From the NCBI RefSeq assembly GCF_001404515.1, contig NZ_CXWE01000003.1, positions 372,001 to 436,000 on the forward strand: a stretch of 64,000 nt of DNA, given 5' to 3'. Shown piece after piece: positions 42,216-57,551 of the stretch (its first letter is position 1; the number at the start of each line of letters is the position of its first letter). The translations under genes were made by a program, and so were the position numbers. The notes under the pieces are model-generated. The model ran no database searches. It was not told the origin of the DNA and saw nothing but the letters and a program-made list of their open reading frames with translations. The DNA comes from Roseibium album. GTDB lineage: Bacteria; Pseudomonadota; Alphaproteobacteria; Rhizobiales; Stappiaceae.

Positions 42216-42292
42216 GGCCCCGTAGCTCAGCAGGATAGAGCATCAGATTCCTAATCTGAGGGTCACAGGTTCGAATCCTGTCGGGGTCACCA
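42216..42292 (+). tRNA. tRNA-Arg (anticodon CCU)
   Basis: The 77-base cloverleaf is complete: acceptor GGCCCCG pairs with CGGGGTC (one G-U), D arm GCTC..GAGC, anticodon stem TCAGA/TCTGA with loop TTCCTAA (anticodon CCT at 42250-42252), T arm ACAGG TTCGAAT CCTGT, and encoded CCA. It is a known type of integration site for genomic islands, and accessory genes begin directly downstream. Confidence 0.97.
42270..42292 (+). other. Probable island attachment site (tRNA 3' end)
   Basis: The 3' end of tRNA-Arg(CCU), from the T loop to CCA, marks the switch from core genes to accessory DNA. Tyrosine integrases commonly recombine in this part of a tRNA gene. No second copy of the core was found by eye up to 64000, so the other end is presumed outside the window. 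Confidence 0.5.
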
Positions 42293-42891
42293 GCTTTTTC
42301 AATATCTTAGCCTGTGGATGAATTTCACACCCAACGAGTGGCGTCCAAGTGGCGTCCAACAAGGGAACTCAGTTATTTGTTGCTGCAGTTGGGCTTTCGA
42401 CGTGATGACTAGGTTAGTTGCACCGAAGAAATGAGTGGTGAAGCAACGCAACGACCTTTTTGGGGCCGGAAACGGATCGGCAGCTTTAAGCGCTTTGTTG
42501 GTTAAAGCAGACCTTCATGGCAACTAGTTTGGCGTCTGAACCCAGCAAATTTATTGAAATTCATGCAGGCACGATCGAATTCCATATCCGATTCCTCGTC
42601 ACTTGACACTCATTCCTATTCCAATTTGGCATGAAGTCCTTCGATTGATTGCACCGGGGCCGAAGTTTGGAGCGCCGATGTAAGGGCAATTATTGTCAAC
42701 GCACCTCTCTTGTCTTGGTTCGACAAAGCGAAACGATACTACTAACTTTGCGGAGAGGATCTTCCAACGAGTGCTGGAGTCTCGAATAGTGTACTCACAA
42801 GAACGACCTGGGCTATAGTTTGTCGCACAAATCAAAATTCGAAGTAATTTTTTGGCAAGCGGTTTCAACTCCCAAAAAACGCTTTTGTTTC
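42293..42891. other. Gene-free junction region of the island
   Basis: This 599-base region between the tRNA and the first accessory gene has a tandem 11-bp repeat near its start, and short open frames without recognisable sequence. It may contain remnants of an integrase-binding site. No gene is supported. Confidence 0.5.
42338..42359. repeat. Tandem 11-bp repeat next to the attachment site
   Basis: GTGGCGTCCAA occurs twice head to tail, 46 bases after the tRNA. Short direct repeats at this distance are often the arm-type binding sites of tyrosine integrases. That role is inferred. Confidence 0.6.
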
Positions 42892-43533
42892 TTAGTTGGC
42901 GTCGAGGATTTTCTTAAGATTGGTGACCGGGTAGTCCACGCCGCGGGTGGGAACGTTGAGGTTCAACTCGGCGGCGACTTCACGAACGAATGACAGGCAG
43001 TCAGACCAGGTTAACGTATATGTCTTGCCGCGCCATTTCTCCACCTTCCGGAGGACTGCGTCATATTGCGCTGGATCCACCCAAAGCTGGATCGCAACAG
43101 CCGGTTTCTCATCTTCAAGCACAGCTTCCGCGCCACGGTCCTTCAGAACCAGCTTATATCTCAGTAAAGCTGCATCGATGGCGATTTTCTTCGCGTCCTC
43201 AGGGTTCATTCCGAACAAGAGCGGGTGCTGCCAGAACACCGCATTGCCTTGCTGGCGCCACTCGGACAAGATTATATACGCATGGCCTGGTTTTTTCTCG
43301 TTCGGTCCTGACCAGCGGGCAAGCAAGGTAACAGCATAGACCATGACCCCGTCGCCGATATCGGCGGTCATCGGGGAATTGCGAATATCCTTAAAAAGAT
43401 AGTTGCCGGGGCTCACGCCGCCGATGGCGACCGTTTCCGGGCCCTTCTTCCCGACGGCAAGGGCACTGTCTGACAGAGCCAAGAGTAATACAATCAGGGT
43501 GCAGGTCAGACTGTTCAAAAAGGATCTCATCAA
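42892..43533 (-). CDS. Secreted permuted papain-like (NlpC/P60-LRAT type) protein, last gene of the motor operon
   Basis: This 213-aa protein has a signal peptide (cleavage after about SALA). A His lies early in a strand (H84 in KPGHAYIILS) and a Cys late at the start of a helix (C179 in YTLTWSDCLSFVREVAAEL). This order, His before Cys, is that of circularly permuted NlpC/P60 proteins such as LRAT and YiiX types, which act on peptidoglycan, lipids or peptides. It is 55 bases past the ZorB-like gene and is probably co-transcribed. It may be a periplasmic effector of the system. ATG 43530 is an equal start. Catalysis is inferred from two residues only. Confidence 0.6.
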   Translation of the reverse strand: MMRSFLNSLTCTLIVLLLALSDSALAVGKKGPETVAIGGVSPGNYLFKDIRNSPMTADIGDGVMVYAVTLLARWSGPNEKKPGHAYIILSEWRQQGNAVFWQHPLLFGMNPEDAKKIAIDAALLRYKLVLKDRGAEAVLEDEKPAVAIQLWVDPAQYDAVLRKVEKWRGKTYTLTWSDCLSFVREVAAELNLNVPTRGVDYPVTNLKKILDAN

Positions 43534-43588
43534 TACCTCCTATGCGCGTTTTGACGATTTTTTGCACGCGCTGCATCGTTCGATCACG

Positions 43589-44914
43589 CTACTGCCCTTG
43601 TGCAAAAACCAATTGGTTCAATTGCTTAATACAATGGTCGTTTGTTCCTCGGGTCTTGTCACATTCATGTAGGGCCATGACTGCTGCCGCAGTGAACAGG
43701 TGAAAGAGGCCTTTCTGTCCGTTTCCGGCGTGTTCGAGAATTTTATTCGGAACGAAAGCCGGCATCGCCCGGAATTCCACGCGACGATCCCGGGGATCCC
43801 CCGCAGAAGACGTAAGTTTCTCGCCATAGCGAAGGCTGAAACGGCCAAAGTCGCTGAGGGCAAAAATCCGCGGCAGAAAACGGCGGTTGCCATCGGCATT
43901 TGCGGTCTCCAGGCCGAGTATTGCGGTGCACCAATGGGGGGTATCCCCAGTTTCAGCTTCTGCTGCTTCGGGAAAGTCGTCATTGCCACTTCTATACACA
44001 CGGCACTCATGCGCGAGCCGTTCACGCAACGGCACTAAATCGGTCAAAGGGCTCAAAAAAGATCGACCGGCTTTCAGTTTATCGGCGATGCTATCCAGCT
44101 GAACGGCGAGTTTATCGCGTGCCAAGTCATTTACTCCAACAGGATTTGGATCCAAAAGCGCTAGCAACACCATCTGAGCACGGTCTTGAGCGAGCCTCGC
44201 ATTCATTTGCTCGTCAGCAGGTGTCATTTTTCTATTCGTAGGTTTCTGACCGTCCGCATGACCCTCGATGAAAATCTTGTCCAGCCCGGCAAATGCGCGC
44301 CCAGATACGTAGTCGCGGTCACTGGCGTTCTGTGCGCTTTGGCTCTCGAAGAATCCTCGACCGCGCACAAATACAGCGCTTTTGCACGTATCAATCATCT
44401 CCTGAATAGCGTCCGCATCCATCCGGACACTTATGTCAAGCGGTGCAAAACAGGGAAGAACGTCTGTCATCCGTTGGCGTATTTGCTCGATCGCCGCGAT
44501 ACTGCCATCTTCAAGCGTTGGAAGTTCGATTTTTCCCGCAGAAAAAAGTCCCCCGTATCGGTCGGTACGTCTAATTTCGGGTCTTTTTGAAAACTCATTC
44601 GAAGCTTTGTACGTGAGGACAGCGACTGACTCTCCATCTGGAACGGTTATGTGTATTTCGCTTGAGAAAGCTCCCTTATGCCCTGGAAAAGTGTCAACGC
44701 AGTCTTCCTTGTCCGGCCCACATCGCAGCTCGTACAGAAGATAATCAGACCCCAGGCCGGCGGTCCGCAATTGACTGGTTATACTCTGGAGGCTCCCTAG
44801 AGACGCAGCAACTGCCAAGAGTAGGATCGCGACAAGCCCGAACTGGATGTCTACGAACCCAAGAGTTGCTGGGTCCTCCATGCCGCCTTCTTCTTTAGGT
44901 TCTACCAAACGCAT
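43589..44914 (-). CDS. ZorB/MotB-like motor subunit (TM + OmpA-like domain)
   Basis: This 441-aa protein has a short cytoplasmic N-terminus, one membrane helix (about 19-40) that begins GFVDIQFGLVAILLLAVA with D22 at the place of the ion-binding Asp of MotB, ExbD and ZorB, and a periplasmic part. The OmpA-like peptidoglycan-binding domain starts at IFIEGHAD (214-221), continues through NARLAQDRAQMV, and ends at DPRDRRVEFRA (about 373-383), with an insert of about 100 residues between. Six or more cysteines lie in the periplasmic part. It is the partner of the ZorA-like protein encoded eight genes upstream in the same operon. Confidence 0.75.
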   Translation of the reverse strand: MRLVEPKEEGGMEDPATLGFVDIQFGLVAILLLAVAASLGSLQSITSQLRTAGLGSDYLLYELRCGPDKEDCVDTFPGHKGAFSSEIHITVPDGESVAVLTYKASNEFSKRPEIRRTDRYGGLFSAGKIELPTLEDGSIAAIEQIRQRMTDVLPCFAPLDISVRMDADAIQEMIDTCKSAVFVRGRGFFESQSAQNASDRDYVSGRAFAGLDKIFIEGHADGQKPTNRKMTPADEQMNARLAQDRAQMVLLALLDPNPVGVNDLARDKLAVQLDSIADKLKAGRSFLSPLTDLVPLRERLAHECRVYRSGNDDFPEAAEAETGDTPHWCTAILGLETANADGNRRFLPRIFALSDFGRFSLRYGEKLTSSAGDPRDRRVEFRAMPAFVPNKILEHAGNGQKGLFHLFTAAAVMALHECDKTRGTNDHCIKQLNQLVFAQGQ

Positions 44915-44926
44915 AGATTGCCCTTA

Positions 44927-45775
44927 TCAACCAACCGATTTGAGTGCATCTGTGGCGGATTCGACGATTTCAAGTATCTCGCCAGAGGCGCCAGTATTGT
45001 CTTCAAGCAGATCGCTCAACTCCACCCTGCGGTCGGACAGCTCAGCGAACAGCGCAAGGATGGTGGTTTGCAGGCTACGAAACCGGTCGGCAAGTTGCTC
45101 GGCGCGGTTAGCATAATTGGCGGAATGGTTCTCCAGCGTCTCAAGAACACTGTCCGCGCGGTTTTCCCAAGCCTGTGCAAGCGACGCAGTGCGTGCCTCA
45201 AAATCATCGACGCATTGTTCGCCGAGTTCAGAAGCGGCCACCCCCAACGTGTCGTAAGCTTCCGTTGTCTCCTCCCGCGCCGAATTGAAGGCGTCTGAGA
45301 CCTGTTCGACCGTGTCTGTCAGGTTGCCGGCGGTCACCTCCACGCCGTCGGTCACGAGCCGGGAGGCAACCGTGTCCGCAACGCTTTCAGCGCCATTTCG
45401 AGCCCTTTCCGTTAAGTCATCGATTTTTTCTTCAAGGCTGGCTCGGTTCTCTGGCGGTGCAATCTGGCCGACCCGCTCCGGCAAGTCGCGCGCCAGCTCG
45501 GCAAGGTCTCCCAGTTTGCCAGTCACCGCGCCGGCACGCTTTGCAAACGCTGTTTCAAGCGCGTCCACGATCCTATCAGCGTCGAGGTTTTCCAAGGTTG
45601 CGGCACCTACCTCTTCCAGCCGGGCGAGGATTACCACAATGGCGTCAGCTCTTTTTTTGATGCGACCCCGGGCGTCCACCGAGCGCCCGTTCAGCGCCTT
45701 CAGCCTGGCAACAACGTCCTTTGCTTGGGCCTCGGCAGCTTCAAAACGACCCTCAAGCTCCTGTGTTGTTTTCAT
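44927..45775 (-). CDS. Coiled-coil protein 4 of motor operon
   Basis: This 282-aa, acidic, almost wholly helical protein has heptad-like spacing of Leu/Ile/Val/Ala through its length, no membrane segment and no catalytic motif that I recognise. It is the fourth in a run of four similar-sized proteins (255-284 aa) between the ZorA-like and ZorB-like genes. It starts within the end of coiled-coil 3 (4-base overlap) and stops 12 bases before the ZorB-like gene. A scaffold or tail role is inferred from position. Confidence 0.6.
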   Translation of the reverse strand: MKTTQELEGRFEAAEAQAKDVVARLKALNGRSVDARGRIKKRADAIVVILARLEEVGAATLENLDADRIVDALETAFAKRAGAVTGKLGDLAELARDLPERVGQIAPPENRASLEEKIDDLTERARNGAESVADTVASRLVTDGVEVTAGNLTDTVEQVSDAFNSAREETTEAYDTLGVAASELGEQCVDDFEARTASLAQAWENRADSVLETLENHSANYANRAEQLADRFRSLQTTILALFAELSDRRVELSDLLEDNTGASGEILEIVESATDALKSVG

Positions 45776-46626
45776 AAACTCACCCCCACGCTCCTGGCGA
45801 GGCTTTTGAAAGCGGTGAACACTTCTTCAAGCATATCCGTTACGGGTTCCAGACTGTTGATTGCGTTTTCCAGGGTGCTGCGAACTTGACCACTCTGGGC
45901 GCTATCGTCCGTGATCTGGGTCACCAACTGTTCAACCAAATCCTCCAGATAGTCCTTCAAAGTGTTGATCGCGGCTTGCAAGGCTAAGGCGACATCGCTT
46001 GCAAGCCGCTCAAAATACTCTGAGAGCAACTGCTCGATTTGCTTGGCGATGGCGTCGCTGGTTGCCGATACGAAGTCGGAAACGGCCGATTGCATTGGTT
46101 CCAAAAACTCTTCGGACAACGTTTCGTCGAGAGACTGGATCGTCTCGGCGAACGTGGCTTGCGTTGTCTCCAGCAACGTGCCGATTTGTTCGTTTGCCTC
46201 ATCCAGCGCCTCGGAATACACTTCGCGCGCTTGCTGGAGTTCTTCGTTCACGGTGTCGAGCCGCTCCAGTATTTCATCCCGGCACGTTTCCGTTTTTCCA
46301 ATGAGAGCCTGCAATTCGCCGCTGATTTCACCGGTCGGCAAGGCTTCACGAGCGGCGGCGGAGAATGAGGAGAGCTCTTCAGCAGCTTCGCCAAATCCGG
46401 CGTCAAGCGCAGTGAGGTGATTACTAACCCTATTATTCATGCCGTCCAAGACGTCCCCAACAAGATCAAGGTTGCCTTGGAACTGAGTAAGCGCTGTCAA
46501 CGCGGCGGCTTCAGCCGACCGGGCAAGGCGCGATGTACTTTCAATTCCTTCTGTTAGGTCTGACAGAGTTCCGTCGATTAAAAGTACTATGCTTGTAAGA
46601 TTGTCGATACGCTCCTGTGTGACCAT
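45772..46626 (-). CDS. Coiled-coil protein 3 of motor operon
   Basis: This 284-aa acidic helical protein contains long Glu/Gln/Leu-rich stretches (NEELQQAREVYSEALDEANE; EQLLSEYFERLASDV). No membrane helix or enzyme motif is visible. It abuts coiled-coil 2 (stop at 46627, start at 46626) and overlaps coiled-coil 4 by 4 bases. Its C-terminal third has a different periodicity from the N-terminal part and may be a bundle. Confidence 0.6.
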   Translation of the reverse strand: MVTQERIDNLTSIVLLIDGTLSDLTEGIESTSRLARSAEAAALTALTQFQGNLDLVGDVLDGMNNRVSNHLTALDAGFGEAAEELSSFSAAAREALPTGEISGELQALIGKTETCRDEILERLDTVNEELQQAREVYSEALDEANEQIGTLLETTQATFAETIQSLDETLSEEFLEPMQSAVSDFVSATSDAIAKQIEQLLSEYFERLASDVALALQAAINTLKDYLEDLVEQLVTQITDDSAQSGQVRSTLENAINSLEPVTDMLEEVFTAFKSLARSVGVSL

Positions 46627-47442
46627 CTAAAGCCCCCCTGCGAGCAGTTTTTTCACCGTGCTAACCGCCTTTATAGCCGGACCGACATTCGGCGCCATCG
46701 TCGCTAGCGTGGTGTTTAGTTGAAGACAAACCTGAGACACTGCCTGGTCCAACCCCAAATCCATGACGACATCTTCAAGAACCTCGGAGACGATTTTCCG
46801 GGCCGCTTCTTCGATCTGGTCCCGTATCAAACCTTCACAAAGTTCTTTGAACTCCTCTTGGACGTCAGAGACCTTCTCGCCCACCGCGTTGGCGCCGCTC
46901 TCACCGGCGTCCAGAGCGGTTTCCATCAGGTCGTCGATAACGTTCACGAGGGACTCAAGCAGTTCATGCGCCGCCTGTTTGACCCGTGTTTCTAACAATT
47001 CTTCAAAACCATCCCCCAATTCGGCGCCCGCGTCAGAAATGGCGCTTTCGACTTCTGACAGGTGGTCTTCGGTGTCGGTGACAACTTCAACCCAGCTCTC
47101 AGTTTGGGTCTCCACTGTTTCCGAAAGCGCATCGGTGACTTCGGAGAAGCTCGCAGCCGCGATTTCCAACTCGGCTACCTGCTGCGCAAGGCTGTCGCGT
47201 TCTTCTCTAAAGACTTCCGGCAATCCGGTCAGTCGACCCAGTTCTGTGATCAGACCGGTGAGACCATCCAACTCGTCGAGGTCGAGACTGAATTCGGGAA
47301 GCTCAATGGCACCGGCCTCGTCCGCCACATTTTCGGCTATGCTGGCTGTTTCCGTGCCAAAAACTTCAATGGTCTGGCGCAATTCACCTGCCGAGGCCTT
47401 GACCTCTTCAAGGGACGCTTTCAAAGCTCTCAGGTCGGTCAT
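46627..47442 (-). CDS. Coiled-coil protein 2 of motor operon
   Basis: This 271-aa acidic helical protein has helix-forming blocks (LRALKASLEEVKASAGELRQ; EEFKELCEGLIRDQIEEAAR) and a moderately hydrophobic C-terminus (AIKAVSTVKKLLAGGL). No domain is recognised. It overlaps coiled-coil 1 by 4 bases and abuts coiled-coil 3. Similar in size and composition to its three neighbours, which suggests duplication or a shared assembly role, not proven by sequence identity. Confidence 0.6.
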   Translation of the reverse strand: MTDLRALKASLEEVKASAGELRQTIEVFGTETASIAENVADEAGAIELPEFSLDLDELDGLTGLITELGRLTGLPEVFREERDSLAQQVAELEIAAASFSEVTDALSETVETQTESWVEVVTDTEDHLSEVESAISDAGAELGDGFEELLETRVKQAAHELLESLVNVIDDLMETALDAGESGANAVGEKVSDVQEEFKELCEGLIRDQIEEAARKIVSEVLEDVVMDLGLDQAVSQVCLQLNTTLATMAPNVGPAIKAVSTVKKLLAGGL

Positions 47443-48206
47443 GCCATCAATTCCATGATGGGTCTCAGGGCTTTGATCTTCTCCTGGAGGTCGGCAACGG
47501 GCTCAAGGACGTCATTGACTTTGCCAACGCCTTTGTTCAGAACGGATTCTGCTGTGTCCATTGCTTTTTCTGCTTTCGTGAACCATGCGTCGATCGTTTG
47601 TGTGGCATTACTCATGTCTGCTCCAAGCTTGCCGGTGAGCTGGTCCGACAACTCTTGATCCAGACGAGAGAGCTCATCGCCCCGCTCGATCAGAAACGCA
47701 TCAACCGTCTCTTCAAGGCCTTCCTGTGCCGTCGCAATCTGTTCACGCCATTGTTCCAATTCGGCGGTAAACGTGTCACTGCTAGCCGTGATGGCGCCGT
47801 TAAAGAGGTCGTTTGCTTCCAGAATATCGTCGGTCGCATCGTTGACGAGCTCGGCCAACGCGTCGAACTTTTCCTCTACCTCCGATTCCGGGGTGTCAAT
47901 GGGCTCGAGGGGATCAAAACTTGTTTCCAGGACTTCGATCGCCTTATCGATGTGTTCTTCGACAGGCAAAAAGAGAGCTTCCGCGATTTGCCCGAATTCA
48001 TGCTCAAGGGCCTCTTCGTTTGTCACTAGTTGGATGGTGGCCACGGCTGCTAGCACCGCGGATAAGGTACCCGCTGATTGCTGCAACTGATTGGTTACTA
48101 CTTCTTCCAGCGTGCAGACCGCGTTCTCGGCCGCGTTGACCAAGCCTTGCGCATCCTGCAGGTAGCCCTCAATCTGTTCCAATACCGTTTCGAGGTCGTC
48201 CTCCAT
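47439..48206 (-). CDS. Coiled-coil protein 1 of motor operon
   Basis: This 255-aa acidic helical protein has long amphipathic stretches (DDLETVLEQIEGYLQDAQGL; ELSRLDQELSDQLTGKLG) and no recognised domain. Its start lies 38 bases inside the end of the 505-aa gene and its stop overlaps coiled-coil 2, so the order is one continuous translational unit. Function unknown. Confidence 0.6.
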   Translation of the reverse strand: MEDDLETVLEQIEGYLQDAQGLVNAAENAVCTLEEVVTNQLQQSAGTLSAVLAAVATIQLVTNEEALEHEFGQIAEALFLPVEEHIDKAIEVLETSFDPLEPIDTPESEVEEKFDALAELVNDATDDILEANDLFNGAITASSDTFTAELEQWREQIATAQEGLEETVDAFLIERGDELSRLDQELSDQLTGKLGADMSNATQTIDAWFTKAEKAMDTAESVLNKGVGKVNDVLEPVADLQEKIKALRPIMELMA

Positions 48207-49686
48207 CCGTCACCTCTTTTTGCCCTTGGCTGTTAAAACCATAAAAACTTAGAATTCCCTCGAAGTCATGCATGTCCTCCGGAAGACTTTCGATGCATGT
48301 TTCAATCAGTCTGCGGCGGACGGTCTTGGCTCTCTTCTGCAGATCATTGGAGTTGTCGTATAGCGCCCGCGTGCTAGTGCAGTCATGCAAAATGCCCTTC
48401 AGCCGCTCCTCGTTTTGGGGCAGCAACAAATTATTTAAGAGGCGTTCGAAAGCAGCAGTATCGATCAGAAGCGGCTCGACTTCCCGGCCATAAGGCGTGA
48501 TGTCATCGGCCGCGGTCTCACAAGGGCCTCCATTGAACGATGTTGCGGCAATCGTTTGAGGTGCGGTCTCGTCGTAACCTGGAAAAAAAAGATTGGCGAC
48601 GTAGAGCCGGCTCACGCTCTTTTGAGCCGCGCACTTGGTCAGTATAAGCGGTATCGCTCTGCCTTCGTCATCCCTGTATGTCAGGTAAACTCTTCCAAAC
48701 CGGTCGATATCCAGGGTTTGGGTCAATCCCCCACGCGGATTTGCCGACGCGAGCGAAGATTTTGACAACTCGGCGGTTACTTCCGCCCCCCTTTCGCCCA
48801 ATCGACCGGCACGCGGTTTGATCATGATGGTAAGGACGGGGAGGTCGACTAACACAAAACCAGACTTAACGAGGTCATCGCCTTCGGAGACTCTTTGCGA
48901 TAAGATATTGATGCAGTAGTCCTGCGGAGTCTTGTCGATACTGAGCGCTACCTGTGCCCTTAACGGAGGCACTTCTGATTTTGAAACGATCGGAGTTTTT
49001 TTCCCAAAAGCCTCTGTAACGACAGGGTAGGGCACAGGCGTTTCATTAATTCGAAACCACGACGCTAGAAAGAGATTGTCGTCGCGTTCGAGATCAAGCG
49101 CCGGGGCATCGCCGTCGTCAGCCGTCGGGACCTGGTCACGCTGTCCAAGGTCTTTCCAGTTTCCCCTCTCCAGGATTTCACGCCTCGCCCAATCGGAAAG
49201 TTTGGGGGTTGCAGCGGCCCGGCCTTTTACACGCATGCGGCGCAGAGCATATCCAAACCAGGGGGCAATCGCACCTGGCCAAGGGTATTTACCGGAGCCA
49301 TCAACTTGTGCATGAAAATGCTGACCAATGGCCAGGACATCTATGCTATCCAGACGGAACAGGTCCGCGGCCGCCGTCTTAAGGATCTCCAGAACAAGAC
49401 CGGTCATTAGCAGATCTCTATCGATCAGTTGTTTTTTGATCTCTTGATGCTGCGTCACATCCCACTGCACGACCGAGAGACCCTCTGCCTCTTTTCCAAC
49501 CAACCAGGACGATCTGACTGCTGTGTCGTTGGATTTTCTGCGGGCGCCAATAACCGGCAGCGGATCGAATGACCTTGTCCTGCGCGTGCGGCTATCCGCG
49601 CAGACAGTTTTGTCCGCGATGAGGTTCGCCTTAACGGTACTGAACTCGGCATCATACTCAAAAACGAGAAGGTGCGTGCTGCTCAT
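48169..49686 (-). CDS. Unrecognised 505-aa protein of motor operon
   Basis: This 505-aa soluble protein begins MSSTHLLVFEYDAEFSTVKA. I recognise no domain: there is no P-loop, helicase motif or nuclease motif. Its beta-rich N-terminal and C-terminal parts flank a stretch with several Asp/Glu and aromatic residues (KYPWPGAIAPWFGYALRRM). It overlaps the 751-aa gene start-to-stop by 4 bases and overlaps the first coiled-coil gene, so it belongs to the operon. It could be a sensor or effector; this is speculation. Confidence 0.6.
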   Translation of the reverse strand: MSSTHLLVFEYDAEFSTVKANLIADKTVCADSRTRRTRSFDPLPVIGARRKSNDTAVRSSWLVGKEAEGLSVVQWDVTQHQEIKKQLIDRDLLMTGLVLEILKTAAADLFRLDSIDVLAIGQHFHAQVDGSGKYPWPGAIAPWFGYALRRMRVKGRAAATPKLSDWARREILERGNWKDLGQRDQVPTADDGDAPALDLERDDNLFLASWFRINETPVPYPVVTEAFGKKTPIVSKSEVPPLRAQVALSIDKTPQDYCINILSQRVSEGDDLVKSGFVLVDLPVLTIMIKPRAGRLGERGAEVTAELSKSSLASANPRGGLTQTLDIDRFGRVYLTYRDDEGRAIPLILTKCAAQKSVSRLYVANLFFPGYDETAPQTIAATSFNGGPCETAADDITPYGREVEPLLIDTAAFERLLNNLLLPQNEERLKGILHDCTSTRALYDNSNDLQKRAKTVRRRLIETCIESLPEDMHDFEGILSFYGFNSQGQKEVTDGGRPRNGIGTD

Positions 49687-51938
49687 GTCAGCTCCAATCC
49701 TGCAAGACGGATTTTGCTTCTCAGCGATTTTTTGGCATCGGACCGGCTGGATTTCACCACCGCTTCATTTTCCTTGATTTCCGCCAACAAATCATTGATT
49801 GCGGTCTTCGACGCCGACAACGCGTCTTTCAACCGTCCAGTTCCGCGAGCATCGTTGCGCGATTTGTCTGCTTTAAGCCCGGTCGCAATAGCCTTGAGCT
49901 GCGCCCGTAGTATCTCCAAATCCCGTTCTACTGCTTGAAGAAACTCCTGCTTCGCCGGACCGATCAACGTCGTGGCAGCAGCCTCATAGACACGGTGGGT
50001 ATCATCGCGCAACTTATCGAGCTTTTCGCCCTGCATGTCGCGGACCGTCAAGAGCCCCAACCAAACAGGGAGCGCCGCCACGACCAGAAGACCTAACCAG
50101 AAGCCGCCTGCCAAGGCCAGCGACATAAAACACGCCTGCCCGACATCGGTACTACAGGCCGAGATCGACGGTGTGAAACTCAGGAGGTTGCTTAAAAAGC
50201 CGTTGGCAGGTACTCCCTTAAGCAAATTCTCCTTGCTCAGACCTAAGATCGATGCTCCTAATACGAAGACGCCACCGATTTTAAGGCCTTGGCGCACCAG
50301 AGTCCGATAGCTTTTCGACCGAAGTTTAAAGTTTTTCGTCGCCGGCACTTTTTCAATCTCCGGAGGCTTTGCGACCGAAGCCTTGATCTTGGCCGCCGAC
50401 ATGGCGGCGGCGGCCCTGTCTGCGGGAACGGTACTTGTTCTACGCAATGACCTTGGCAACGATCCGTTCGCTGCGACCGCGATTTCGAGATTGGCGATCT
50501 CTCCGCTCAAGATGGTCGCGAAGTAAAGCTCGTATATAAGGCCCGCGGTATGTGCCGTCTGATAGCACCGTTCGGCAAGGGCGTCTGCTATGAATTCCGT
50601 AACCGTTTCCGAAGGTCGAACGGTCTTCAACGCATCCAAGCGGCTTTGAAGAAAATTGCGTTTGCTATCATCTTCCCACTCGACCCAATCTTCTCGCACA
50701 GCGTCGTCGCCCCAGCGCCCCCAATCGCGGCTACCTTGCCCCTTTTTTTTTCCACCGACGCCACTGTAGTTTCCGGCGGCCAGTCTGGATTTTAGATCGG
50801 CAAAGATGTGCTCGACCATCTGGCCAATCCGAATACGGGCGTGATCGATGCGCTCATCGATTTGCTGTTGGAGATCGCCAGCCTCCTTGGCGGTGTCTTC
50901 CGCCTTTCTGTGCTCGGCAACAGTCAAGGCGCCCTCGAAGGCACGTCCTTCAGCTTCGCGCTGCGCAAGCCGTTCTTCCAGTTCGTCCCTGTCGCCAGCC
51001 AACACCGTTGCAAGATTCGCACGCGTTTTATCGCCAAGCTTGTTCACCTGATATCCGAGCGGCACGAACGCCTCATGCGGCAGCCGCGTCAGGTTCAGAT
51101 CCGCGTATTGTTCGGGCAACACTCCGTCGACAATAGACTTGATTTCCGTCTCCGGCTCTGGCAGCAAAACAACGATCTGGCCCTTTACCGCAGCTTCCAA
51201 TTCGGAAAGAGCAAAAATCCGGGTGTTTTGCCAGGCTTCAAACGCCTCATCGTTTTTTTTGCTCGCTGCTTTCGATAACCGCCGTTTCGGCGGTAAAGCC
51301 CAATCGGCGCTAATGTCGAGAATGAGGGGTGCCTCAGGACCTGCAGGATCGGTCTCTTGGGACAGTTCAACTAAATCGACCTCAAAGCCACCGGTCTGGA
51401 GACTCTGCTGCAAAGTCCGCAGCTTCCTTGACATGACTCCGCCAGTTGACAGAACGTTAATGCGGTTCCCGGTGGCCTGCATAGACCACCAGAGCGGGCT
51501 CTGGGTGTCCTTGGATGTTTCGTCCAGGCTGACCCAGCGAAGATTGGCACCGGCATAGTGATGCAACACCAAGGATTCGATTTTCGCGAAGTTCTTTTCA
51601 CCACCATGCAGGCGGGCCAGGACAATGTCCGGGGTCCACGGCAAGCAGGCCAGTTGAGACATAAATGCCGCTTCAGCTTCAGCGTCCCGCGGGGCATTAT
51701 CGGCGGCGATAACCGTCAGCACCGGGTGCGATGCAGGTTGATCGGAGAGGATCCAGCCGTTGCGCGCCTCGTCAAACTGAACCACGCCAAGTGCGTAGCT
51801 GTATCCGCTCAGCGCAGTCATGATTTGAGATTTAAAGTATTCGCCAGTGTTAATCAGTGCTGCAAGCCGGCTTGCAAGGCAGCTCGCTTGCTCAGTCGAG
51901 CAATTGCTGTTGCAAGTTCGGGCAAGAACGACTTCCAT
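49683..51938 (-). CDS. 751-aa membrane protein of motor operon
   Basis: This 751-aa protein has a large soluble N-terminal part (to about 540). It includes a charged helical stretch near 310-380 (ELEERLAQREAEGRAFEGAL) and a Gly/Lys/Trp-rich segment (SGVGGKKKGQGSRDWGRWGD). Two or three hydrophobic segments follow around residues 555-640 (LKIGGVFVLGASILGL; GFWLGLLVVAALPVWLGLL), then a C-terminal coiled coil. No family is recognised. It lies between the ZorA-like gene (3-base gap) and the 505-aa gene (4-base overlap). A role at the inner membrane beside the motor is inferred. Confidence 0.6.
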   Translation of the reverse strand: MEVVLARTCNSNCSTEQASCLASRLAALINTGEYFKSQIMTALSGYSYALGVVQFDEARNGWILSDQPASHPVLTVIAADNAPRDAEAEAAFMSQLACLPWTPDIVLARLHGGEKNFAKIESLVLHHYAGANLRWVSLDETSKDTQSPLWWSMQATGNRINVLSTGGVMSRKLRTLQQSLQTGGFEVDLVELSQETDPAGPEAPLILDISADWALPPKRRLSKAASKKNDEAFEAWQNTRIFALSELEAAVKGQIVVLLPEPETEIKSIVDGVLPEQYADLNLTRLPHEAFVPLGYQVNKLGDKTRANLATVLAGDRDELEERLAQREAEGRAFEGALTVAEHRKAEDTAKEAGDLQQQIDERIDHARIRIGQMVEHIFADLKSRLAAGNYSGVGGKKKGQGSRDWGRWGDDAVREDWVEWEDDSKRNFLQSRLDALKTVRPSETVTEFIADALAERCYQTAHTAGLIYELYFATILSGEIANLEIAVAANGSLPRSLRRTSTVPADRAAAAMSAAKIKASVAKPPEIEKVPATKNFKLRSKSYRTLVRQGLKIGGVFVLGASILGLSKENLLKGVPANGFLSNLLSFTPSISACSTDVGQACFMSLALAGGFWLGLLVVAALPVWLGLLTVRDMQGEKLDKLRDDTHRVYEAAATTLIGPAKQEFLQAVERDLEILRAQLKAIATGLKADKSRNDARGTGRLKDALSASKTAINDLLAEIKENEAVVKSSRSDAKKSLRSKIRLAGLELT

Positions 51939-51941
51939 GGT

Positions 51942-53546
51942 TTAAGTGATCTCATCGGTGGGGGGGATGTCGTTCCCGGGCTCCAATGCACCGGAAAGTT
52001 CGCGTCTTAGCTTCTTCAACTCATCCAATTGGTAATCGAGTGCGCCGATTTTGGCGTTTAGCAGCGTCAGACTTCCTTCACTGTTCTGGTAGACCTTATT
52101 CAGATCGACAATGCCCTGTGCCGCGTTGGTAGTTGTGGTGACAACCCTTTCAAATTTCTCGGCAATCTCCTTACCGATCGGCGCTGCCGCGTCATCGACA
52201 CCCAAGTACCGGTTCCAATCCTCTCGGATATTAGTCCCGGTGGCTTCCAGTTGCCGGGCCGCGTCCATGACTCGCGTTTCAAAGGTTTCGCCAGAGTCAA
52301 GGACCTGCTGACGAAAGGTTTCGGCTGTCGGCGTTGGCAGGTCGCCGCCTTCAAACTGATGTTTGCCGGCGATCAAGACGTGGAAGTTGTTTCCGGTTGC
52401 ATCCACCTTATCCTTGAAATCACTTGATGCGCCGTCGACCGCCCATTTGAACTGATCTCCAGACTCGGAGATTGTTTTTCCAAACTGCTGGGCGAACTTG
52501 ATCGCGGATTCCGCTGCTGTCTGCAAGACTTCCGCTGGGGCGTCTCTGACGGCTTGAAGGGCGCTTTCCAGAGCATGCCTGGCTTCCTTGATTGCGGTTT
52601 CGGCCTGTTCCGCGGAGTGTTTCACAACCTTTTCCGCTTCCTGAGATGCGGTTTTCAGGGTGTGATCCGCCGTCTCGCCGGCGCTTTCAATCACCTGCTT
52701 CGCGTCGGCTAAGGCGTCTTTGAGGGTCCGTGTCGCCGCGTTGTATTCACCAACCGTCGCCTCCAATGTTTTGGTGGTGGTTTCCAAGGACCCGAACAGA
52801 CCAGTAAGCGCAGTGTTGGTCTGGCGTTGCTCCTCAACAAGCGTATACACCTCGGCGCTGACGCCGATCGAACGAACATTGACCTCTACTCTGAGTGCAT
52901 CCTCGAACTCGACGAATCCCCGCGTTGCCCTTTTCAAGTGCCATGCGATCATTACCTGCAAGATGATGCTGCCCGCTAAGCCGACAAAGGTGAAGGAAAA
53001 CTTCCCGGAGATCGAGGCAATCAGTCGTTCCTGAGATCCCGACAAGTCCTGAGAAATGGAGATCAGCGCCAAGGTGATGAAAAAGACGGATGCGGTCAGA
53101 CCAAGCTGAACAAACCGCCGTGACATGGCTGTTGCACCTGGGGCGTCGATGATGCGGGCCGGCAGAGCGCCTGAAAACACGTCGGACAACCGTGCGTGAC
53201 TTACCAGGCCTTCTTTTGTCCGCAGCACCAACTGGTCAGAATAACCTGTCAACGCGTTGGCGATTTCCACCCGTGCAAGGTAATGCACAGGCGGTTTTCT
53301 CTTCTGCAGCACTTGGTTAAAGTCATCGACGGTCGGACCGCTGAATTCGCCTTCGCGCTTCTTCAGGATTTGTGCAATTTCTGCCACCGATTTGGTGAGT
53401 TCATCGATTGATCGACGACCCTCCAAGATCCTGGCGAGCGCGGAAACCATCAGAGCGGTAACCAGCAAAAGAAATACAATCGATGCCCAGAAAGTAAATG
53501 TGGAATCAGCAAAAACACTCAGAGAATCTTCAAACCCGCCCAGCAT
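51942..53546 (-). CDS. ZorA/ExbB/MotA-like motor subunit with long coiled tail
   Basis: This 534-aa protein, first in the operon, has three membrane helices near residues 17-39, 145-167 and 183-205. The last two form a hairpin ending FTFVGLAGSIILQVMIAW, similar to the TxxGLxxSI helix of ZorA, TolQ and ExbB. Residues 215-530 are mostly Ala/Glu/Thr-rich coiled coil, like the cytoplasmic tail of ZorA. ATG 53546 is chosen because TAGGG precedes it; TTG 53555 is too close to that site. With the ZorB-like protein it should make an ion-driven motor. Not identified as a typical ZorA by length or neighbours. Confidence 0.7.
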   Translation of the reverse strand: MLGGFEDSLSVFADSTFTFWASIVFLLLVTALMVSALARILEGRRSIDELTKSVAEIAQILKKREGEFSGPTVDDFNQVLQKRKPPVHYLARVEIANALTGYSDQLVLRTKEGLVSHARLSDVFSGALPARIIDAPGATAMSRRFVQLGLTASVFFITLALISISQDLSGSQERLIASISGKFSFTFVGLAGSIILQVMIAWHLKRATRGFVEFEDALRVEVNVRSIGVSAEVYTLVEEQRQTNTALTGLFGSLETTTKTLEATVGEYNAATRTLKDALADAKQVIESAGETADHTLKTASQEAEKVVKHSAEQAETAIKEARHALESALQAVRDAPAEVLQTAAESAIKFAQQFGKTISESGDQFKWAVDGASSDFKDKVDATGNNFHVLIAGKHQFEGGDLPTPTAETFRQQVLDSGETFETRVMDAARQLEATGTNIREDWNRYLGVDDAAAPIGKEIAEKFERVVTTTTNAAQGIVDLNKVYQNSEGSLTLLNAKIGALDYQLDELKKLRRELSGALEPGNDIPPTDEIT

Positions 53547-54014
53547 CGATGCCAATACCCTACATTGATCTTGAAAAGGAACTATTCAAATTAGTTCCAG
53601 CCCACCTTTAAGTCGCAATAAGATTCAGGTACTTTATAAAAATTGCAAGAAAAAAAATCTTGAGCACGTATGACTTGCATTTGTGGCAGTTTCCTTAGGG
53701 TCAGTTCATGTTGGGACTGCTGGATTCATTCGGCTGCCGTAGTTCCCGTCTTTGCGGGCACCGGATTTGGGTCAGCACAGTTTTCGGCAATCGTTCATGC
53801 TCCGGTCAAACTCCGGTGACACAGGGCGACGTTTTAACAACCGTCATTGCAATCTTTGATACACATCGACAGACTCTTGCACTTTCTCTTAAACTAGCAA
53901 GCGACGCTCGCGGATCGGATCGAACCGTTTCTACCATTTTGGGAAACGGCGGTCAGTCAACCGTCTCGGTACCGACTAAGACTGATTTTTTGGGTTCACA
54001 TCTGGGGTTTTCAA
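53547..54014. other. Divergent promoter region of motor operon and Cys-rich gene
   Basis: This 468-base region separates the motor operon (minus strand) from the Cys-rich gene (plus strand). An AT-rich part at 53620-53660 includes TTATAAA and could hold the operon promoter. Open frames here look accidental. No operator is recognised. Confidence 0.5.
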
Positions 54015-54722
54015 ATGAGATCTATGCTTGCATTACTTGTTATGATGCTTTTTCCAAGCCAATTGGCCTGGGCCCAATCGGCCTGTCAATCCAATGAGAA
54101 GAGTTCCTGCGCGGTCTACTCGGACTGTATCGAAGCCAATTGCAACTGCGCGGCTACTTCCCATAATTATTCCGGGACTTTCGGGCCGAAATACTGCACT
54201 CGGTTTGGCGCGGAGAGCAGCTTTAGCGCAAACGGCTCCGCGTGGCGTGACAAAACGCTCCTCTGCCTGAAGGACCGTATCTCGCAAGCGTATGTTGCTC
54301 ACAGCGATGGCAGCGGAAAGGGCTGCGACTGCGCCGCCATTCAGGCTGCGGCGATAGACTCGCACAGCAGTTGCTATTTGGACACGCCGTCCTTCTGCCA
54401 ACTCTCACAAGCCGACGTTCGCGTGCTCGCCCGAATTGTCGATACGCCCGACATTGCCAAACTCGGATTTCCCGGCCTGCGGGAAATGGGGATTGTACTG
54501 GCAACCTGCTATTGGGAAGAAGGCAAAGACGTGGGGGACGAACTTGCCCGCGCATTTGTCGACGAGACAGTCGCGGAAAATACCGAAATTGCGCAGGATG
54601 TAGCCCTAACCATTATCAGCCACGCAATCGAGTACGCCGTTGAGCGGGCCAAAGCCGAAGCTGCAACCGCCTTGCGCCAACTGTTTGATGATTATTTCCC
54701 GAACGAAATCCCAAGAGGTTGA
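54015..54722 (+). CDS. Cysteine-rich secreted protein, unrecognised
   Basis: This 235-aa protein has a clear signal peptide (MRSMLALLVMML, cleavage after about AWAQ) and at least twelve cysteines in its first 150 residues, including CNCAA, GCDCAA and SSCYLD. The C-terminal 90 residues are helical and acidic. Disulfide-rich, periplasmic or surface localisation is likely. I do not recognise the family. It is divergent from the motor operon and may share its regulation or act as a partner or immunity element; this is inference. Confidence 0.6.
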   Translation: MRSMLALLVMMLFPSQLAWAQSACQSNEKSSCAVYSDCIEANCNCAATSHNYSGTFGPKYCTRFGAESSFSANGSAWRDKTLLCLKDRISQAYVAHSDGSGKGCDCAAIQAAAIDSHSSCYLDTPSFCQLSQADVRVLARIVDTPDIAKLGFPGLREMGIVLATCYWEEGKDVGDELARAFVDETVAENTEIAQDVALTIISHAIEYAVERAKAEAATALRQLFDDYFPNEIPRG

Positions 54723-55450: not shown

Positions 55451-56641
55451 TCATGGTGCAGTCTCCCGGTATGACGCGGCGCAGTGCGGCGGTGCACGGG
55501 GCTGTTGCCAGCGGGCGAAGGTCTCGATGATGACCATGTGGCCACCGCAGCAAGGGCATGGCGGGCGCGTCTCGGCAGGCTCTGGCGCATCCTTTTCGAG
55601 CTCCGAGGCGACGCTCAGCAACTCGCGAGCGTGATCGAGACTGGCCTTGCGAGAGGTGCCGGCAAGAAGTCCGTAGTGGCGAATGCGATGGAAGCCGCGC
55701 GGCAGGACATGGAGCAGGAAGCTTCGGATGAACTCGTCCGCGGTGAGCGTCATGACCTGCTGCCGGTCGGTGCTGTCACGGCGGTAATCCTTGTAGCGGA
55801 AGGAGACCCCGTTCTCGTCGAAGCGGATGAGACGGCGGTTCGAGATGGCGACCTTGTGAGTGTAGCGGGCCAGATAGGCGAGCACCGCTTGCGGTCCGGC
55901 AAAGGGCGGCTTGGCGTAGACAACCCAGCGTTTGCTGCGGACAGGCTTCAGATGACGCAGAAAGGCCCTGCGATTCGCCAGTTGGCTCATTGATCCGAAG
56001 AAGGCGAGCCGTCCTGCATCGTGGAGTGTTATCAGCCGGGTCAGGAACAGGCGACGGAACAGCTTGCCCAGCACCCGCACTGGCAGGAGGAATGCGGGGT
56101 GTGACGATATCCAGCGCGTTCCGTCGAGCGAGATGCCGCCGCCCGGCACGATCATGTTCACATGTGGATGATGCACTATCGCCGACCCCCAGGTATGCAG
56201 CACCGCGGTGATGCCGATGCGGGCTCCGAGATGCTTCGGGTCGGCGGCGATCGTCAGCATCGTCTCAGACGCCGCCCGGAACAACCGGTCGTAGACCACT
56301 GCCTTGTTCTGGAAGGCAATGGCGGCGACCTCGGCGGGCAGCGTGAAGACGACATGGAAGTAGCCGACGGGCAGGAGGTCGGCCTCCCGCTCGGCCAGCC
56401 ACGTGCGCGCGGCGGCGCCCTGGCACTTGGGGCAGTGCCGGTTGCGGCAGCTGTTATAGGCGATGCGCCAGTGCCCGCAGTCCTCGCAGGCCTCGACGTG
56501 TCCAACCAATGCAGCGGCGCGGCACTGTTCGACCGCCGACTTCACCTTGAGCTGGGCGAGGCTCAGGTGTCCCTCATGGGTTGCCCGGTAGGCTGGCCCG
56601 GCAGCGCGGAAAATATCGGCGACCTCAAGCGAGGCGCGCAC
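55451..56641 (-). CDS. IS91-family HUH (Y1) transposase
   Basis: This 396-aa protein has an N-terminal zinc-binding region (CEDCGHW, SCRNRHCPKC), the HUH motif (HHPHVNMIVPGGG) and the downstream Tyr region (YLARYTHKVAIS) of IS91 transposases. It nicks and replicates DNA by a rolling-circle route. Its 5' end is 4 bases from the recombinase gene, so the pair is co-expressed. The sequence is complete and probably functional. Confidence 0.93.
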   Translation of the reverse strand: MRASLEVADIFRAAGPAYRATHEGHLSLAQLKVKSAVEQCRAAALVGHVEACEDCGHWRIAYNSCRNRHCPKCQGAAARTWLAEREADLLPVGYFHVVFTLPAEVAAIAFQNKAVVYDRLFRAASETMLTIAADPKHLGARIGITAVLHTWGSAIVHHPHVNMIVPGGGISLDGTRWISSHPAFLLPVRVLGKLFRRLFLTRLITLHDAGRLAFFGSMSQLANRRAFLRHLKPVRSKRWVVYAKPPFAGPQAVLAYLARYTHKVAISNRRLIRFDENGVSFRYKDYRRDSTDRQQVMTLTADEFIRSFLLHVLPRGFHRIRHYGLLAGTSRKASLDHARELLSVASELEKDAPEPAETRPPCPCCGGHMVIIETFARWQQPRAPPHCAASYRETAP

Positions 56642-56645
56642 TTGT

Positions 56646-57551
56646 TCACTCGGGCGGCGTCTTGCCTTCCATCAGCGCCATCAGCCGGTCGAGAGGTCCT
56701 GCGACCGCGTGGATCGTCCGGGTCGAGACCTTGGCGTAGAGCGCCGTCGTCTCCAGCTTGCTGTGTCCGAGCAGAACCTGGATGACCCTGATATCGGTAC
56801 CGTCCTCCAGGAGGTGGGTTGCGAAGCTGTGCCGTAATGTATGCGGGCTGACACGCTTGCGAAGACCGGCGACCTCGGCCGCTTCCTGAACGGCACGATG
56901 CAATTGCCGCGACGAGATCGGATCGGTGCAGCTGCGCCCCGGAAACAGCCAGCCATAGGGCAGCATCACGCCGCGCCGCCTGCCTTCGCGCCACCACACA
57001 CGCAAGAGCTCCAGAAGTTGCGGTGAGAGCATGGCGTTGCGGTCCTTGCGTCCCTTGCCCTGTTCGACGCGGATCAGCATGCGGGTCGAGTCGATATCGT
57101 CGACCTTCAGATGCGCGACCTCGGAGACACGCAGGCCCGCGCCATAGGCGACACCGAGTGCCGCCTTGTATTTGATGCCAGGCGCCGCCTCGAGCAAACG
57201 TGCGGCTTCCTCCACGCTCAACACCTCGGGCAGCTTGCGCGGGTTGCGGGTGATCACCAGAGTTCGCGACAAATCCCGCCGGTTCAGCGTTACCGTAAAC
57301 AGAAAGCGCAGCGCCGAAACCGTGCTGTTGATCGTCGCCGGGCCTACGCCGGTCTCGTGCTGGTGCAACTGGTATTGCAGGATGTCCTCGGCGGTCGCTG
57401 TGTCGGGAGGGCGCCCGAGAAACGCGGCGAAGTTCCTGACGTGGCGAACGTAATCATTCTGTGTATGGGAGCCCAGGCCCCGCATCACCATGTCTTGCTG
57501 AATGCGCTGACGCAGCGGTGTGATCGGGGTATCGGTCTGAAAGGTGGTCAT
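56646..57551 (-). CDS. Tyrosine recombinase of IS91-type element
   Basis: This 301-aa protein has an N-terminal SAM-like core-binding domain (SHTQNDYVRHVRNFAAFLGR) and a catalytic domain with Arg in GAGLRVSEVAHL, HTLRHSFATHL, and LGHSKLETTALY, giving the R..HxxR..H..Y set. IS91-associated recombinases of this kind are typically just upstream of the transposase. It is not likely to be the integrase of the tRNA island, because it belongs to the IS unit. Complete. Confidence 0.9.
   Translation of the reverse strand: MTTFQTDTPITPLRQRIQQDMVMRGLGSHTQNDYVRHVRNFAAFLGRPPDTATAEDILQYQLHQHETGVGPATINSTVSALRFLFTVTLNRRDLSRTLVITRNPRKLPEVLSVEEAARLLEAAPGIKYKAALGVAYGAGLRVSEVAHLKVDDIDSTRMLIRVEQGKGRKDRNAMLSPQLLELLRVWWREGRRRGVMLPYGWLFPGRSCTDPISSRQLHRAVQEAAEVAGLRKRVSPHTLRHSFATHLLEDGTDIRVIQVLLGHSKLETTALYAKVSTRTIHAVAGPLDRLMALMEGKTPPE

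Follow-up and report, generated by a model that had tools for sequence, protein, structure and literature searches.

A putative ZorAB-type motor operon of unassigned type, probably defensive, on an integrative island of Roseibium album

The window analyzed here is a 64,000-nucleotide stretch of Roseibium album DNA (contig NZ_CXWE01000003.1, forward-strand positions 372,001 to 436,000), and our subject is a minus-strand row of nine open reading frames (ORFs), A to I, which the ORF list of the window places at 42892-53555. Gene A (51942-53555; 537 amino acids [aa], TTG start) encodes a putative ZorA-type motor subunit, and gene H (43589-44914; 441 aa) a putative ZorB-type subunit with insertions relative to ZorB. 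Between them lie gene B (49683-51938; 751 aa), whose product has a hydrophobic segment at residues 601-635, perhaps a second one before it, and a helical C-terminus, and gene C (48169-49686; 505 aa), neither of which falls into a family. Four genes for acidic, coiled-coil-like proteins without a hydrophobic segment follow: D (47439-48206; 255 aa, pI 4.1), E (46627-47442; 271 aa, pI 4.1), F (45772-46626; 284 aa, pI 4.1) and G (44927-45775; 282 aa, pI 4.5). The row ends downstream of H with an accessory gene, I (42892-43533; 213 aa), whose product has a signal-peptide-like N-terminus and His...Cys motifs. From A to I the successive junctions measure +3, -4, -38, -4, 0, -4, +12 and +55 bases, and GC is lowest at codon position 2 in all nine genes, as coding DNA should show. 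The original prediction had described a nine-gene minus-strand operon with overlaps or gaps below 60 bases, in which four acidic coiled-coil proteins and ORFs of 751 and 505 aa stand between two motor genes. All of these ORFs are present, and the end it gave for A (53546) fits an in-frame ATG three codons after the TTG start at 53555. We infer that genes A to I form one translationally coupled operon.

The product of gene A has hydrophobic regions at about residues 12-46, 147-171 and 185-207, in the pattern of ExbB and ZorA proteins, followed by a 304-residue helical tail whose hydropathy periodicity at 3.5-3.67 residues was matched by none of 200 shuffles. Matches of the whole protein are of little meaning because many of them are to coiled-coil models, and cutting A to residues 1-233 removes these. 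The ZorA matches of D to G and of the A tail in PADLOC and NCBIfam likewise fall in coiled-coil regions, and we gave them no weight as signs of homology. Against the 5027 PADLOC models, A 1-233 has two matches only, both to ZorA (E = 1.7e-4, collinear, and E = 0.0048).

For profile comparison, eight neighborhoods were taken from 11 genomes with long ZorA matches. All eight yielded a ZorA row (L111 was omitted from alignment A1), and 11 more distant ZorA-like domains were added to give 19 rows. In hhalign, A 1-240 scored 88.5% against these 19 rows (E = 2.8e-6 over 135 columns), as against 8.9% with 25 ExbB/TolQ sequences, 0.3% with five MotA sequences and 0.3% with Hsp70; the ExbB/TolQ and MotA ORFs had been sorted by script from loci found with the MotA_ExbB model. 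Five shuffles of A 1-240 reached at most 0.3% against the same 19 rows. Residues F148, V149, L153, K185, F186, G192, L193 and S196 are identical in A and in all seven ZorA rows compared.

The product of gene H has a single hydrophobic segment near its N-terminus, with D22 inside it, and an OmpA-type domain. All five of its PADLOC matches are to ZorB (best E = 2.6e-6), and hhalign gave 89.8% against five ZorB rows; L109, L111 and L113 were omitted because no whole ZorB ORF was listed there, the one in L113 being split in two. Residues D22, E217, G218, H219, D221, N238, L241, R245, R377, R378 and R382 are invariant with the five rows. Among them, D22, H219, L241, R245, R377 and R382 are the counterparts of ZorB I D24, H186, L199, R203, R254 and R259, a pairing made by motif and spacing in our own alignment and not against the sequence of PMC11890865. 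That paper reports that D24 is required for defense and that mutation of the other five breaks peptidoglycan binding and defense (PMC11890865). The identity of A and H to the ZorA and ZorB rows is 18-23%. With these controls, the predicted assignment of the motor to the ZorAB type is now supported. The ZorA-like three-helix protein with a long coiled tail and the ZorB/MotB-like protein with a buried D22 and an OmpA-like domain, both called from the sequence at the outset, were thus borne out, and the profile searches proposed along with them put A closest to ZorA (MotA being represented by five rows) and H among the matches of ZorB models.

Products B and C reach no cut-off in Pfam, PADLOC, NCBIfam or PHROGs, C being without any match there, and neither has a sequence match in the PDB. 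Predicted secondary structure suggests that the N-terminal part of B is alpha/beta. For each of D, E, F and G, helical periodicity at 3.5-3.67 residues was matched by 0 of 200 shuffles; in C, which served as the negative control, 119 of 200 shuffles match it. From this periodicity, D to G are probably long coiled rods, in keeping with the coiled-coil proteins foreseen for this position. A paralogous origin of D to G was considered and is not established (hhalign at most 15.3%): phmmer aligns F with D at E = 4.7e-4 (0.0063 for the best stretch) and in blastp the A tail aligns with E at E = 0.009, and coiled coils can score so without kinship.

Known identities were also tried for B and C. Hsp70, which the secondary structure of C and one sequence stretch had brought up, scored 0.1% in hhalign for both, and shuffled sequences do as well in 140 of 200 trials for C and in 149 of 200 for the N-terminus of B. 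The pairing of C with ZorC and of B with ZorD gave 0.1-0.2% against the ZorC and ZorD profiles, which is noise. We rejected both ideas on these results. No ZorC, ZorD, ZorE, ZorF or ZorG model is among the matches listed for the nine operon proteins in PADLOC, Pfam and NCBIfam, which agrees with the earlier statement that ZorC, ZorD and ZorE are missing. Product I carries GHAY...DC.(S/T)FV motifs in common with a gene on a Phaeobacter plasmid (25% identity, E = 6e-3), and has a weak Pfam match to PPPDE, below cut-off (E = 0.034). We take these motifs to be those of a permuted papain/NlpC-like hydrolase, presumably periplasmic. Gene I is not diagnostic of the operon, because the Phaeobacter relative sits in a different gene setting.

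Zorya systems are recognized by a ZorA5:ZorB2 assembly and by anti-phage activity. With type I, which is defined by ZorABCD, the operon shares a ZorA-type motor with a helical tail and a ZorB-type subunit with counterparts of the ion Asp and of the five peptidoglycan residues tested in ZorB. It differs from type I in having no ZorC or ZorD match, in the six-gene distance between A and H, in the insertions in H and in its four extra coiled-coil proteins. The ZorAB core is likewise shared with type II (ZorABE) and type III (ZorABFG), but the HNH nuclease ZorE of type II is not among the matches listed for the nine proteins, and neither are the type III families DUF3348 and DUF2894 (for F, 25 of 67 Pfam families were listed). 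PADLOC includes models for ZorF and ZorG. According to PMC8565338, ZorF is a DUF3348 and ZorG a DUF2894 protein. The tail of A, at about 300 aa, comes near the extension of ZorA II, which spans residues 100-378 in PMC11890865, and the cytoplasmic domain of Zorya ZorA has an extra beta-sheet according to PMC12505986. Types I to III as PMC11890865 describes them have no place for proteins like D to G. TolQR, ExbBD and MotAB belong to the same superfamily of ion-driven rotary motors, and the profile comparison does not put A among them. Taken together, the features of ZorA and ZorB are found here, those of ZorA below curated cut-offs; the Zorya I, II and III partners are not among the matches listed, and A is not closest to TolQ/ExbB or MotA. 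Because the type-defining partner genes were looked for and not found, we file the operon outside Zorya I, II and III and class it as a probable motor system of the ZorAB kind, its type unassigned and its role probably defensive. In a literature search we recognized no paper that describes such a set of genes with a ZorAB motor, which is weak evidence of novelty given that most subscription papers lay outside its coverage.

Searches for relatives excluded the genome itself, drew on overlapping samples and, for protein queries, scored at most 2 to 7 candidates per genome. Among 150 relatives, including 44 congeners, B gave two weak matches, one to a coiled-coil stretch and one with internal stops. 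C was not found in 384 genomes of the class, nor H in 189 of the phylum. A, with no more than three candidates scored in each genome, had a single match in 397 genomes of the phylum, which fell in its coiled-coil tail. When C and parts of B were searched in 396 genomes of the order (at most two scored), 22 genomes had matches at E <= 0.1, of which only G143 reaches 1e-3, with stops inside, and the rest cover about 40-150 residues. None of the rest that were re-scored passed 19 bits, and we judged these matches to be due to chance. Plasmids yielded no match to A, B, C or H, and phages none to C, the only query used there. Scans of sequence collections require exact short peptide matches and so reach close relatives only; no match was confirmed in viral contigs (A, B, C, H and alignment A2) or in genome contigs (B and C). 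The operon is rare or very divergent, and we do not call it unique because the samples were of limited depth and D to G were not searched.

A profile of A and the ZorA rows finds ZorA-like genes in 64 of 200 genomes, this one included, at E <= 0.01. In 12 neighborhoods of such genes, the nine operon proteins have no match at E 0.01. Layouts like ZorABCD occur within the same genus (L112-L114), where we presume the ZorC and ZorD genes from their order and length. Very long ZorA-like proteins were also seen: those at L185:6477-10403 and L186:10125-13880 have 1308 and 1251 aa and are followed by ZorB-like and ZorC-like genes, and many further open frames of at least 1000 aa with ZorA-like matches occur among the 200 genomes. 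The ZorA proteins of PMC11890865 are shorter, with 696 and 378 aa.

The operon lies on a mobile island. Its integration site is a plus-strand tRNA-Arg gene (CCT anticodon; 42216-42292), and the left attachment site (attL), 46 bp that comprise the tRNA 3' end plus one base (42248-42293), has an exact copy at extended coordinates 67524-67569, beyond the window. With 25,276 bp between the repeats, the island measures 25.3 kb. A tyrosine integrase gene (L033:8118-9338; Pfam E = 6.3e-18) adjoins the far repeat; a direct repeat of a tRNA end beside a tyrosine integrase is the mark of an integrative island. The original prediction of a tRNA-bordered island thus stands for the island and for its one tRNA-Arg, whereas the second border turned out to be the 46-bp repeat and the integrase outside the window.

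Besides the operon, the island holds a divergent 235-aa ORF, an IS91-type transposase with a second recombinase, and a 2028-aa protein. The 235-aa product (54015-54722, plus strand, read divergently from the operon) is Cys-rich with a signal-peptide-like start; a partial relative with 39.8% identity is found on a plasmid of Alisedimentitalea, some kilobases away from genes for restriction-modification and a helicase function. At 55451-57551 the IS91-type Y2 transposase adjoins a tyrosine recombinase, with GC up to 0.62-0.63. The gene for the 2028-aa protein, separate from the operon, occupies 59741-64000 of the minus strand in the window and extends to extended coordinate 65827 (continued as L033:1741-7827). 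The protein has a PD-(D/E)xK-like N-terminus and tetratricopeptide repeats (TPR); E37, D67, E69 and K84 near the N-terminus are invariant in all five aligned proteins, itself included, and we take their layout to be that of a PD-(D/E)xK nuclease, although Pfam gives no nuclease match. Its relatives occur in ten plasmid records, four of them covering at least 80%, and those of similar length lie on rhizobial plasmids. Three of the four neighborhoods viewed among these records contain conflict-type genes (GASH in one; kinase, PP2C, VapC and HNH in another; PLD and AAA in the third). It is a candidate defense protein in its own right.

In the nearest relative, G030, both flanks of the island are 92-93% identical, and the same 46-bp site stands beside a 92.6% identical integrase and then other genes. 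That cargo (L195:305-13800) comprises an 838-aa SEC-C protein, a 1599-aa protein with weak matches to STAND NTPase and HEAT families, below cut-off, and an HTH-HipA pair. L195 and L196 of G030 have no match to A to I or to the 2028-aa protein, nor did they yield a second copy of the site, so the far end of that island was not located. G030 did not provide a clean empty site either, its two flanks lying 53 kb apart on opposite strands. Because G030 holds the same site and a related integrase with other genes, the tRNA-Arg site looks like a hot-spot with exchangeable, partly defense-like cargo. In another species of the genus (G008:C22), a perfect copy of the 46-bp site lies about 128 kb from a matching tRNA-Arg gene (229220-229327, 357115-357160) and is probably another island in the same site.

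The explanation that we favor, at somewhat better than an even chance, is that the operon encodes an ion-driven motor of the ZorAB type, anchored to peptidoglycan and joined to a new cytoplasmic module; riding on the island, this machine would probably protect its host from phages or other invaders. Several results weigh against it. The ZorA score of A depends on the rows used, being 38% with the first eight, 17.4% with the 11 distant ones alone and 88.5% with all 19. Against the same 19 rows, a true MotA scores 27.1% and the ExbB of this genome itself 15.5%; some of the signal is hence shared across the superfamily. A reaches no ZorA or MotA cut-off in Pfam or NCBIfam, the sole Pfam match of A 1-233 being FtsL_2 (E = 0.0011, below cut-off) with none to MotA_ExbB, and PDB searches with A alone or H alone give no ZorA or ZorB. 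The OmpA-type residues of H are common to many peptidoglycan-binding proteins; its key residues also occur in other OmpA-type proteins, and for this reason they speak for the function of the domain more than for membership in ZorB. The library scans recognized no effector domain and no nuclease signature in B or C, and the single-sequence AlphaFold2 models of C and B have mean pLDDT values of 35.1 and 40.0, too low for a fold to be named. Finally, the samples searched yielded no relative of the operon (D to G were not among the queries), and for want of one the case for a joint function of A to I comes from the layout alone.

ZorA-like genes also occur in surroundings unlike those of Zorya, as two of the 12 neighborhoods show. 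In L181 (8840-11308) such a gene lies beside a ParA/MipZ-type ATPase gene (Pfam AAA_31, E = 6.7e-17), and L183 holds a ZorA/ZorB-like pair with no profile match to ZorC or ZorD. The ZorA-like proteins of both loci have about 470 aa, the ZorB-like gene of L183 adjoins its partner, and neither locus matches the operon proteins. (A 242-aa neighbor of the L181 gene recurs in L178, L179 and L182, of which L179 and L182 resemble L181 by eye.) Because of these settings, the motor alone is no proof of defense. They lend some weight to the view that the ZorAB-like motor of the operon serves house-keeping or the envelope, in peptidoglycan, trafficking or positioning, and that its place on the island reflects no more than recent transfer. 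The resemblance of I to a periplasmic thiol hydrolase and the missing nuclease signature in B and C fit that view. It is nonetheless unlikely, if far from negligible: the nine proteins match nothing in the 12 ZorA-like loci at E 0.01, the congeners searched did not yield B, and the island carries a nuclease-like giant gene at a site where G030 has defense-like genes beside its integrase. The original prediction had called the operon a separate motor-based system, likely defensive. It is supported in part: the first half by the ZorAB-like motor and the lack of a known-partner match, and the mobile island with its nuclease-like companion agrees with the second, which the motor by itself does not establish. 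Defense is therefore a likely rather than a proven function, on account of the setting and the type of motor.

That unrelated gene sets, with the motor genes apart from B-C and from D-G, were joined by chance would fit with the finding that no relative has the sets together. We consider this very improbable, since the other genes lie between or beside the motor genes on a single strand, four of the junctions overlap and no gap exceeds 55 bases. A canonical Zorya I, II or III system whose partners have diverged beyond recognition, with C as ZorC and B as ZorD, would find some encouragement in the vaguely similar gene lengths and in the ZorABCD-like loci of the genus. The noise-level hhalign scores of B and C, the lack of any listed PADLOC match to ZorC, D, E, F or G, and the want of a place for D to G in types I to III as described in PMC11890865 make it very improbable. 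Least probable of all is a TolQR/ExbBD or flagellar stator relative with chance neighbors. Such proteins share the general fold family, and OmpA-type residues are common to stators, but A scores far higher with ZorA than with ExbB/TolQ or MotA, and the Pfam MotA_ExbB model picks three other genes of this genome and not A.

If the operon is a ZorAB-type defense motor with a new cytoplasmic module, it would probably work along the lines of the Zorya model in PMC11890865. Five copies of A would surround two of H. H would sense or grip the peptidoglycan, and disturbance of the envelope by an invader would open an ion path past D22, whereupon A would rotate or shift and move its tail. D to G may form or extend a segmented rod on the A tail, in place of one long ZorA tail, a proposal that we make because the tail of A is of medium length and the same gene row encodes four separate coiled-coil proteins. 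The rod would reach membrane-bound B, and C; as relay or effector, these two could take the place of ZorCD, ZorE or ZorFG, and I would act in the periplasm. We infer the rod, relay and effector step from gene layout and composition alone. In the model offered by PMC11890865, the signal travels as the tail changes its conformation and a nuclease is recruited. The fuller proposal of a new motor-driven defense machine, with a rotor tail built as a rod of the separate proteins D to G, B as membrane relay, C as cytosolic effector and shaft segments that are interchangeable, is a tentative one that we hold with considerable doubt.

The route by which a signal passes from the rotating ZorAB motor through the long tail to an effector is an open question in the field. 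If the operon works as proposed, it would keep the motor and the peptidoglycan sensor but have its cytoplasmic part split into deletable genes, so that tail, relay and effector could each be tested singly, and the ZorAB motor would be a module used with more sets of partners than those of types I to III.

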